Shown here: positions 8,366 through 57,009 of the stretch, piece after piece
Layout of the letters: every line of letters starts with the position of its first letter
How positions within the stretch are numbered: position 1 is the stretch's first letter
Source: an uncultured Pelagibacteraceae bacterium
GTDB lineage: Bacteria > Pseudomonadota > Alphaproteobacteria > Pelagibacterales > Pelagibacteraceae
NCBI GenBank assembly: GCA_902569785.1
Contig: CACFVO010000001.1
Location: forward strand, 51,971 to 115,970
Length of the DNA stretch: 64,000 bases
Direction: 5' to 3'
Notes under the pieces: generated by a model
The model's input: the letters and a program-made list of their open reading frames with translations, nothing else
The model's database searches: none
What the model was told of the DNA's origin: nothing
Position numbers and translations under genes: made by a program

Positions 8366-8689
8366 ATGAAAAAAATTTTCGTTTTATTAACAACAATGTT
8401 GTTACTTAATGGTTGTGCGGAGTCCATGGCATTACTTGGCACTTCGGTTAGTGGAGCTTCAAACGGAAAAATACTTCAATCCTCTTTAAATTCCGCAATA
8501 AGCTATGGTGTAAAAAAGCAGACCGGCAAAGCTCCTTTAGAGCATGTTAAAGCTTATGCCGAAAAAATAAATCCTGAGAAAAAAAAAGAGCCATGCTTAT
8601 CATTTCTTGAAAAAACTAATTCAGAAATTTGTACAATTGTAAAAAAACGACTTATTTTAACTAAATCAAAAATAAAATACTTAAATTAA
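8366..8689 (+). CDS. Small putative lipoprotein, copy 1 of a tandem paralog pair
   Basis: Lipobox LLLNGC; about 95-aa region strongly similar to the 8830..9339 product. Confidence 0.75.
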   Translation: MKKIFVLLTTMLLLNGCAESMALLGTSVSGASNGKILQSSLNSAISYGVKKQTGKAPLEHVKAYAEKINPEKKKEPCLSFLEKTNSEICTIVKKRLILTKSKIKYLN

Positions 8690-8829: not shown

Positions 8830-9339
8830 ATGAAAAAAGTATTTTTTTTACTGTCAATTATATTTTTACTAAATGGATGTGCGGAGTCCATTGCTTTGCT
8901 GGGCAGTTCAGTTGGAGGAGCATCTAGTGGGAAAATGCTTCAATCTTCTTTAAATTCAGCTTTAAGCTATGGAGTTAAACAACATACAGGAAAAACCCCT
9001 TTAGGTCACGTACTTGCATATGCTGAAGAGAAAAATCCTGAAAAAAAGAAAGAAACTTGCTTTTCATTTATTGAAAGAACTAGATCGGAATTTTGTACGA
9101 TTGTAAAAAAACAAATATCTTTAACAAATAGCGCTATAAAAGAGAAAACATTAAAAATTGGTAAAAAATATACTAAAACAAATAAGATCAAAGATGTAAT
9201 TTTAGAGAAGGAAAATGATTTTACAAATATTTTTTTTCAAGCAAAACAATCTCCTAGAAAGCTAGCTATAGCTTTTCAAACTAAGTTAAAAAAAGAGTCC
9301 AAAAATAAACATTCCAATCAATATTTAATCAAAGAGTGA
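8830..9339 (+). CDS. Putative lipoprotein, copy 2 of a tandem paralog pair, with a lysine-rich C-terminal extension
   Basis: Lipobox FLLNGC; shares CAESxALLGxSVxGASxGKxLQSSLNSAxSYGVK with the upstream ORF. Confidence 0.75.
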   Translation: MKKVFFLLSIIFLLNGCAESIALLGSSVGGASSGKMLQSSLNSALSYGVKQHTGKTPLGHVLAYAEEKNPEKKKETCFSFIERTRSEFCTIVKKQISLTNSAIKEKTLKIGKKYTKTNKIKDVILEKENDFTNIFFQAKQSPRKLAIAFQTKLKKESKNKHSNQYLIKE

Positions 9340-9404: not shown

Positions 9405-10697
9405 TTAAGCAGCCAATGCTTGTTTAATATCTGCAATGATATCGTCTGGATGCTCTATACCAATAGATAGCCTTACGTAACCTGGTGTTACGCCAGCAGC
9501 AAGTAACTCTTCATCGTTAAGCTGACTATGAGTTGTAGTAGCTGGATGTATTGCTAAACTTCTAGCATCTCCAATATTAGCAACATGATAAAGCATTTTT
9601 AAATTGTCAATAAATTTAGAACCTGCTTCTCTAGTGCCAACATCCATTCCAACTAATGAACCGTACCCTCCTTGCATATATTTTTTAGCTCTTTCCTTAA
9701 TCTCACCTTGATGATTAGTAGGGTAGATTATATTTTTAACTTTCTTTTGTGTTTCTAGGAAAGAGACAACTTTTTCTGCATTGATACAGTGTTGTTTCAT
9801 TCTAAGAGCAACAGTTTCCAAACCTTGAATAATTTGGAAAGCATTGAATGGACTTAATGGAGCACCTAGGTCTCTAAGCAAAACCACTCTTGCTCTGATC
9901 GCAAAAGGAATGTTAGCTCCTGTTAATTGAGGAACTGCATCTGCCCAAATAGCACCACCATAACTTTGATCAGGCTCGTTCATTAACGGTTGTCTTTTTC
10001 TGTCTTTTGTCCAGTCAAAGTTACCACCATCAACAATGATTCCACCTATTGAAGTTCCGTGACCACCAATATATTTAGTCAAAGAGTGTATTACTACTGC
10101 AGCACCATGAGCTAAAGGTTTACATATTACTGGTGAAGCAGTGTTATCTATAATTAAAGGTATTCCTTTTTTTTTACCGATATCTGCAACCTCTTTAATT
10201 GGAAATACTCGAAGATAAGGATTTGGACAAGACTCACCGTAATAAGCTCTTGTTTTATCATCTGTCAACTTCTCGAAGTTTTTTGGATCTGCGGGATCTG
10301 CAAATCTAACTTCAATACCCTGTTGTCTTAAAGTATTTTTAAATAAATTTACTGTCCCTCCATATAAATCTGTTGAAGCAACAACATTATCACCAGCTTG
10401 TGCTACGTTTTGTACACTAAAGGCTGATGCTGCTTGACCAGAACCAACTGCTACTGCAGCTAAACCGCCTTCTAATGCAGCAACTCTTTTCTCAAGAACA
10501 TCACATGTTGGATTCATAATCCTTGTGTAAATATTTCCAAATTCTTTCAAACCAAATAAATTTGCTGCCGTTTCAGCATTTTTAAATTGATAAGAAGAAG
10601 TTTGATAAATCGGAACTGCCACCGCAGTAGTTGCAGGGTCGCTTCTATACTCACCACCGTGTAACCCAATAGTTTCCGGATGCTTAAATTTAGTCAT
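9405..10697 (-). CDS. metY: O-acetylhomoserine sulfhydrylase / aminocarboxypropyltransferase
   Basis: Cys/Met metabolism PLP enzyme (VIHSLTKYIGGHGTSIGG). True start likely MTKFKHPETIGLHGG at 10697, with GGAG at about 10704-10707; the ORF-track start at 10742 lies in the leader. Confidence 0.92.
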   Translation of the reverse strand: MTKFKHPETIGLHGGEYRSDPATTAVAVPIYQTSSYQFKNAETAANLFGLKEFGNIYTRIMNPTCDVLEKRVAALEGGLAAVAVGSGQAASAFSVQNVAQAGDNVVASTDLYGGTVNLFKNTLRQQGIEVRFADPADPKNFEKLTDDKTRAYYGESCPNPYLRVFPIKEVADIGKKKGIPLIIDNTASPVICKPLAHGAAVVIHSLTKYIGGHGTSIGGIIVDGGNFDWTKDRKRQPLMNEPDQSYGGAIWADAVPQLTGANIPFAIRARVVLLRDLGAPLSPFNAFQIIQGLETVALRMKQHCINAEKVVSFLETQKKVKNIIYPTNHQGEIKERAKKYMQGGYGSLVGMDVGTREAGSKFIDNLKMLYHVANIGDARSLAIHPATTTHSQLNDEELLAAGVTPGYVRLSIGIEHPDDIIADIKQALAA

Positions 10698-10710
10698 TTT
10701 TTTCTCCTTT

Positions 10711-10765
10711 TTTAGTACTTTGACGAAATGTCGGGTGTACAATATAGTTCAAATACCCGGTTTTA
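10711..10765 (-). ncRNA. SAM-V riboswitch candidate overlapping the metY translation-initiation region
   Basis: Minus strand AACCGGGTATTTGAACTATATTGTACACCCGACATTTCGTCAAAGTACT: P1 CGGGT/ACCCG and H-type pseudoknot GTAC(10737-10740)/GTAC(10715-10718), ending just upstream of AAAGGAG. Confidence 0.8.
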
Positions 10766-10779
10766 ATTTGAGAATATTT

Positions 10780-10810
10780 CAAAAAAAAACCACCGGCTAA
10801 AGCGGTGGTC
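10780..10810 (-). terminator. Intrinsic terminator between the SAM-II and SAM-V aptamers
   Basis: Minus strand CCACCG CTTTAGC CGGTGG TTTTTTTTT. Confidence 0.9.
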
Positions 10811-10824
10811 ATTAGACTTTGTCG

Positions 10825-10875
10825 CTTTAGCTGGATTTGTTGAGCGCTCAGCAATTTGAATTAAATCAGCGCTAA
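10825..10875 (-). ncRNA. SAM-II riboswitch
   Basis: Minus strand TTAGCGCTGATTTAATTCAAATTGCTGAGCGCTCAACAAATCCAGCTAAAG: P1 AGCGCT/AGCGCT, pseudoknot GCTG/CAGC, and conserved GATTTAA and AGCTAAA elements of SAM-II. Confidence 0.88.
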
Positions 10876-10879
10876 CATC

Positions 10880-10908
10880 ACTAAACTACCTTTCTTAATT
10901 GCTGTCAA
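10880..10908 (-). promoter_or_regulatory. Putative sigma70-type promoter for the metY leader
   Basis: TTGACA (10903-10908), 17-nt spacer, TTTAGT (10880-10885), directly upstream of the SAM-II aptamer. Confidence 0.65.
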
Positions 10909-11012
10909 GATGTATATAAATACTCAAAATTCAAGCTTTAAAGCCTTACTTGTTGATACCTTTTTACCTTTGAATCCTTTTGTTATTTTCCGCTTTTTTG
11001 CTAGTTTGAGAT

Positions 11013-56817: not shown

Positions 56818-56965
56818 CTATCTGTCCATGTACCTGAGAGATTTAATCCTTCGGTGAGGCTATCGCCTACTTTCCAGAGTTATTATTGTAACGGTCCTTT
56901 TGCCTGAGAGTTTCTAGGGAAGTTGCTCCTTCGGCGCTGTATTAAAACAGACTCTTCCGTTACAT
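56818..56965 (-). ncRNA. Tandem (two-aptamer) glycine riboswitch upstream of gcvTHP
   Basis: Minus strand has two aptamer cores: GCCGAAGGAGCAA...CTCTCAGGCAAAAGGACCG and CACCGAAGGATTAAATCTCTCAGGTACATGGACAG; aptamer 1 closed by TGTAACGG/CCGTTACA. Confidence 0.95.
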
Positions 56966-57009
56966 TTGTACTTTCCATCAAAAGAAGGGAAAAGTCAATT
57001 ATTTTTAAT

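Follow-up and report, generated by a model that had tools for sequence, protein, structure and literature searches.

Expression of metY in an uncultured Pelagibacteraceae bacterium is very probably controlled by a tandem SAM riboswitch of the known bi-mechanism type (SAM-II, terminator, SAM-V), whose response to the ligand we infer. On the minus strand of the window (the whole stretch of 64,000 nucleotides that was analysed), positions 10910-10697 carry, in order, a promoter, a SAM-II pseudoknot, a terminator with a U9 run, a SAM-V pseudoknot, AAAGGAG and metY. Thus SAM-II, an intrinsic terminator and SAM-V at the ribosome site are found on one transcript, with the promoter directly 5' of them. 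The presence of these elements, the homology of both aptamers together with their covariation, the placement of the promoter, and the complementarity and conservation of an antiterminator are directly supported at this locus. The first-pass annotation had proposed that SAM controls metY at the level of transcription and then of translation; this is the best-supported reading in view of homology, covariation, anatomy and the published tandems (PMC9481103). A conserved antiterminator that uses the SAM-binding strand, absent from that annotation, would make SAM-II a switch. It is new in the present analysis, as judged from a comparison made apart from the original SAM-V paper (Poiata 2009), which reportedly deals with the bhmT tandem of 'Ca. 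Pelagibacter ubique' HTCC1062.

For the comparative analysis, 84 distinct tandem leaders of the family were aligned; promoter statistics were taken from 90 leaders and the comparison of folds from 76. The organisms compared are close relatives, with numerous partial single-cell genomes among them, and the counts given below are of sequences, not of events.

The promoter described earlier, TTGACA-N17-TTTAGT on the minus strand, was confirmed. Its -35 box (10908-10903) is kept across 90 related leaders and its -10 box (10885-10880) ends 6 nt 5' of P1 of SAM-II. A promoter score of at least 10/12 was obtained for 78/90 related leaders, as against 1.5% of random 55-nt stretches. In 89/90 leaders the distance from the end of the -10 box to P1 is 4-9 nt, and therefore the transcript should begin at the aptamer; in the window, the position of the -10 box would place the start site at or adjoining the SAM-II 5' end. 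The gene itself (9405-10697, minus strand) encodes an O-acetylhomoserine aminocarboxypropyltransferase of 430 aa, which scored 560.5 bits against TIGR01326 (cutoff 495.1). The nearest MetY relatives in the genome collection come from single-cell and metagenome assemblies of Pelagibacteraceae (SAR11), and the divergent neighbour of metY is sarcosine oxidase beta. Just downstream of metY, two adjacent paralogous small lipoprotein-like ORFs (MKK..LLNGCAES.ALLG) lie on the plus strand at 8366-8689 and 8830-9339, probably as a tandem duplication. A single glycine riboswitch aptamer (RF00504, 71.4 bits) is also present in the window at 56882-56969 on the minus strand, ~84 nt before a gcvT-looking ORF, and is ordinary for SAR11.

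The SAM-V aptamer (10701-10767, minus strand) matched RF01826 over its full length with 71.5 bits (E 1e-9 in 64 kb; gathering score 41). Its helices are P1, (C)GGGT/ACCC(G) at 10758-10755/10736-10733, P2, GTAC/GTAC at 10740-10737/10718-10715, and P3, at 10732-10730/10724-10722, and covariation supports the P1/P2 pseudoknot. Across the 84 leaders 99.6% of the cells in these helices are paired, and five pairs are changed on both sides in a total of 80 cells, compared with at most one such cell in any slid version. The Shine-Dalgarno site AAAGGAG (10704-10710, minus strand) lies 4 nt past P2, and the metY ATG is 6 nt further 3', which puts the end of SAM-V at the ribosome site of a gene for methionine synthesis. 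The second pseudoknot with SAM-V features (CGGGT/ACCCG plus GTAC/GTAC) that had been noticed earlier was thus borne out, with a gap of 4 nt in place of the estimated 5 or so. For SAM-V of metY, a crystal structure and a model of Shine-Dalgarno masking have been published (PMC6061858).

The check with Rfam covariance models that had been suggested for both aptamers succeeded for SAM-V (RF01826, 71.5 bits against a cutoff of 41) and not for SAM-II. RF00521 gave no SAM-II match in the 64-kb window even at E<=10, and none in the 857-kb partial genome. The gathering score of RF00521, which the window SAM-II fails, is a database cutoff and not a structural feature. When the model was calibrated on the published SAM-IIs of HTCC1062, metX scored 26.7 and bhmT 15.5 bits, both below the cutoff of 36; its silence on the window SAM-II is therefore uninformative, and RF00521 was dropped as a judge of SAM-II. 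Since the Rfam model misses SAM-IIs of SAR11, counts of tandems based on it are likely to be too low. A covariance model (R1) was therefore taken from seven metX-type SAM-IIs, all from non-tandem leaders. With filters off, R1 matched the window at 10874-10821 with 36.3 bits (E 2.5e-7; runner-up E 0.13), and this was its sole convincing match in the 857-kb partial genome. A chance origin of the window SAM-II was excluded on these grounds, nothing comparable being found elsewhere in the partial genome.

Alignment with the SAM-IIs of metX and HTCC1062 bhmT reveals an H-type pseudoknot in which P1 is accompanied by a P2 strand that ends in GCUAAA (aptamer at 10821-10874, minus strand), in agreement with the pseudoknot of AGCGCT/AGCGCT plus GCTG/CAGC that had been read from the DNA before. 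The P1 arms AGCGCT (10868-10873) and AGCGCT (10843-10848) pair with each other (10873-10868 with 10848-10843) and their innermost pair covaries, being T-A, C-G or T-G in 84/84 leaders where 86% would be expected under independence. The L1 third strand GATTTAATTC (10858-10867) and the P2 3' strand CAGCTAAA (10826-10833) were placed by alignment to the HTCC1062 bhmT SAM-II, and the P2 5' strand AATTGCTG (10849-10856) by the leader alignment. The P2 core GCTG/CAGC joins 10852-10849 with 10833-10830; the third pair of P2 is TA, AT, GT or GC in 45/84 leaders and a G-A mismatch in 38. In the HTCC1062 tandem SAM-II, the SAM-contact residues are U10, U11, A20, U21, U22, U46, A47 and A49 (PMC11508383). 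All 8/8 are present in the window, with the numbering verified on HTCC1062 bhmT; U10 and U11 in L1 correspond to 10865 and 10864, and U46, A47 and A49 in the P2 3' strand to 10829, 10828 and 10826. In the relatives, positions 10 and 20 covary (alignment A2: U10/A20 in 41, G10/C20 in 30, G10/A20 in 13, U10/C20 never), and a pocket altered in this way may differ in affinity or ligand.

Between the two pseudoknots, where a U9 terminator had been claimed, an intrinsic terminator does occur at 10810-10781. It consists of a GACCACCG/CGGTGGTT hairpin (10810-10790) and the U9 run (10789-10781); in 84 leaders 98.5% of the cells in the stem are paired, but no pair has both sides changed. The SAM-II strand GCUAAAGCG, which holds U46, A47 and A49 and thus half of the pocket, can form nine pairs with the terminator arm and loop, CGCUUUAGC. 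The 5' arm of this antiterminator, GCTAAAGCG (10823-10831), is complementary to 10804-10796 and is in common with the SAM-binding strand. Its 3' arm, CGCTTTAGC (10796-10804), is the terminator 5' arm plus loop, as assigned from complementarity and the ligand-free fold. As a 12-pair helix, the antiterminator is paired in 91.1% of the cells in 84 leaders, compared with 20-52% when slid, with a mismatch at one of the outer pairs (columns 44 and 84) in 76/84. Two pairs are changed on both sides, in six cells, a pair count matched by 45/500 shuffles; the covariation support for the helix thus appears real, yet thin. A stronger argument for the antiterminator is the retention of UUUAGC in the terminator loop, which the terminator itself need not conserve. 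A similar loop motif, complementary to GCUAAA, was seen in several standalone SAM-II leaders of SAR11 metX.

When folds were predicted in the absence of ligand (ViennaRNA, with pseudoknots outside its model), the antiterminator reached -25.9 kcal/mol in the window against -20.2 kcal/mol for the terminator. The antiterminator was lower in 61/76 leaders, and the terminator was equal or more stable in 15/76. A further helix, the read-through stem, can be drawn between GGTTTT (10786-10791; terminator 3' arm and U run) and AAAACC (10759-10764, immediately 5' of SAM-V P1). It is paired in 92.7% of cells, with no compensatory changes seen across the aligned leaders. In read-through transcripts, this GGUUUU/AAAACC helix would hide the U run.

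From these elements the following course of events can be proposed. Transcription would begin at the SAM-II 5' end. When SAM is scarce, the 3' strand of the SAM-II pseudoknot would pair with the terminator arm and loop as the antiterminator, and together with the read-through stem this would allow the polymerase to go on. With ample SAM, the pseudoknot would be locked before the terminator arm exists, the terminator would form, and the transcript would stop in U9. In transcripts that escape, SAM-V with bound SAM would mask the metY Shine-Dalgarno site. At the metY locus we infer the SAM binding, the termination, the kinetic window and the masking from the elements described above. The co-transcriptional action of SAM-II is a proposal, and in view of the bhmT data, control by SAM-II could be weak or lacking.

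The free-energy cost of holding the SAM-II pocket strands unpaired was computed as the transcript lengthens; the energies are rough. In the window, the cost of freeing these strands was ~1.5 kcal/mol at nt 52-72, 4.8 at nt 77 and 13.0 at nt 82, then 6.1 with the U run transcribed and 9.0 for the complete leader. From the jump to 13.0 kcal/mol at nt 82, SAM should have to bind before the terminator loop is made. By the computed costs, SAM-II would be able to bind only ahead of formation of the antiterminator helix. In the full-length tandem RNA of HTCC1062 bhmT, the SAM-II domain responds little to SAM, oligos to the poly-U or the start of SAM-V bring its response back, and SAM-V behaves alike alone and within the tandem (PMC11508383). 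These published assays of SAM-II on the tandem were carried out on full-length RNA, with no growing transcripts (PMC11508383). For the same bhmT RNA (Feng 2024), whose numbering matches exactly, we computed a cost of freeing SAM-II of 13.8 kcal/mol at full length. In silico blocking of oligo-like stretches lowered this to 8.7 or 10.2 kcal/mol; blocking of the linker was not by itself enough to flip the fold, and only lowered the cost. The lowered costs fit, in direction, with silencing of SAM-II by the linker and restoration of the response by oligos. Antiterminator timing can thus account, in this model, for the SAM-II domain having been silent in published work on full-length tandem RNA, and the antiterminator offers a simple, testable reason for that puzzle.

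The same data could be taken to mean that only SAM-V is active, SAM-II being permanently masked by the linker and the terminator read through or constitutive. The weak response of SAM-II in full-length bhmT RNA (PMC11508383) is what such masking predicts, and the ligand-free fold does bury the SAM-II strand, which costs 9.0 kcal/mol to free in the full window leader and 13.8 in HTCC1062 bhmT. We consider this unlikely, since the SAM-II contacts and pairs are retained in most of the 84 leaders, which is hard to square with a dead aptamer, the cost is just ~1.5 kcal/mol until the terminator arm is transcribed, and growing transcripts were not used in the published tests.

Revival of the HTCC1062 SAM-II by oligos to the poly-U or the SAM-V start (PMC11508383), and the fall in computed cost on blocking the same stretches (13.8 kcal/mol, down to 8.7 or 10.2), speak for another possibility, that the read-through stem couples folding of SAM-V to release of SAM-II and the leader is one allosteric device in place of two independent switches. 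The stem adjoins SAM-V P1 and is 92.7% paired; it is, however, without covariation, blocking by itself leaves the predicted fold unflipped, and SAM-V is the same alone as in the tandem (PMC11508383), all of which make such coupling quite improbable. A ligand other than SAM but related to it, SAH for example, would change the logic of one or both pseudoknots from that published. Joint replacement of U10 and A20 in many relatives does indicate that the pocket can change, but the window retains the published residue at every contact position and SAH binding is not detectable for the published SAM-V RNAs (PMC6061858), so that another ligand here seems very remote.

Among the 80 metY genes nearest to that of the window, 65 have a leader with the full tandem and 12 belong to a tandem-bhmT-metY operon. 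Of the other 3/80, one has the tandem with an altered SAM-V loop, one comes directly after bhmT, and one sits at the end of a contig. A tandem before metY is standard in the window's clade and the window is an ordinary member. The tandem at metY that the first-pass annotation mentioned for Pelagibacter thus holds for this clade (65/80) and not for HTCC1062, where the published tandem stands in front of bhmT and SAM-V alone is listed for metY and mmuM (PMC2704228, PMC5069961).

Leaders of metY and mmuM from the HTCC1062 genus that have no full SAM-II were also inspected. All those examined but one carry a conserved TGCCGATTTGATCCTATTGCGGGCATAAACTGCTAAAAAGGA-like element shortly before SAM-V; L135 has SAM-V without it. 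The metX-based SAM-II model finds the element in the sampled leaders with E 7e-6 to 5e-3, including HTCC1062 metY (L105, 2261-2306) and mmuM (L106, 1963-2008) and L002-L031, and RF00521 did not find it in the HTCC1062 metY and mmuM leaders. In this genus the element is not followed by a terminator, whereas related genera have element and terminator. Its covariation is weak, the tested pairs being little above the expectation for independent columns. We found no earlier report of a SAM-II-like element before these SAM-Vs. The mRNAs of metY and mmuM rise under sulfur limitation (PMC5069961), for which a purely translational SAM-V is an insufficient explanation by itself. A wider view, which we regard as evenly balanced between right and wrong, is that almost every SAM-V of the Pelagibacteraceae stands second in a leader with two sensors, beyond the known tandems with terminators. 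In this wider view, metY and mmuM of the HTCC1062 genus would have an unrecognised short, terminator-less SAM-II-type aptamer that acts by another route, and the antiterminator strand would make SAM-II purely co-transcriptional, which would explain its dead look in full-length RNA. A short ORF has a weak SAM-II-like match directly on its ribosome site (L102, 1517-1576), which suggests that in the HTCC1062 genus a SAM-II acts on translation.

In bhmT leaders and some metY leaders, the start codon lies ~65-140 nt past the SAM-V AAGGAG (L033, L046, L104, L107, L120 and ~25 similar). The AAGGAG arm in these spaced leaders can pair with a CUCC segment, for which a purine-rich site closer to the gene is an alternative partner. 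The arrangement looks like an anti-anti-Shine-Dalgarno relay hairpin and not direct Shine-Dalgarno masking; a simple test by shuffling did not discriminate for these helices. A short upstream ORF was rejected as a conserved feature of these leaders, as it is shortened (L044, L053) or absent (L107, L110) while the hairpin stays. Spaced metY leaders (L041, L043, L044, L050 and similar) retain a short ORF that resembles the one separating bhmT from metY in the operon relatives, and look as if bhmT was deleted from a tandem-bhmT-metY operon. Outside the family, SAM-V variants whose L1 is altered (TTTGATGTTCAGATTGT) precede an OmpW-like gene, identified by eye, in L242, L243 and L247, and in L242 a metX-like ORF follows. 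L246, which comes from an alphaproteobacterial family other than this one, has a short SAM-II-like element, a terminator and a SAM-V variant, and the neighbouring ORF resembles, by eye, a plasmid or phage replication ATPase.

Tandems of SAM-II, terminator and SAM-V have been described as "bi-mechanism" riboswitches in 149 arrangements (PMC9481103). The locus is one more copy of this known device, and the comparison shows how common it is at metY in an abundant ocean clade. The bhmT tandem of HTCC1062 (PMC2704228; Feng 2024, PMC11508383) has, like the window, SAM-II, a U9 terminator and SAM-V with the same contact residues, and its CUAAAGCG strand is likewise complementary to the terminator arm. 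At bhmT, however, the AAGGAG of SAM-V is ~75 nt before the gene with a hairpin between, whereas its counterpart in the window, 6 nt from the ATG, is the Shine-Dalgarno site of metY itself. SAM-IIs of SAR11 metX and Sinorhizobium meliloti metZ (PMC9373788) share the H-type pseudoknot and the termination predicted when SAM is bound, but have no SAM-V downstream, as the window has. The SAM-V of HTCC1062 metY (PMC6061858) resembles that of the window in gene, aptamer core and position at the Shine-Dalgarno site. It is published as SAM-V alone, and the SAM-II-like element before it is without a terminator; in the window a full SAM-II with a terminator is added upstream.
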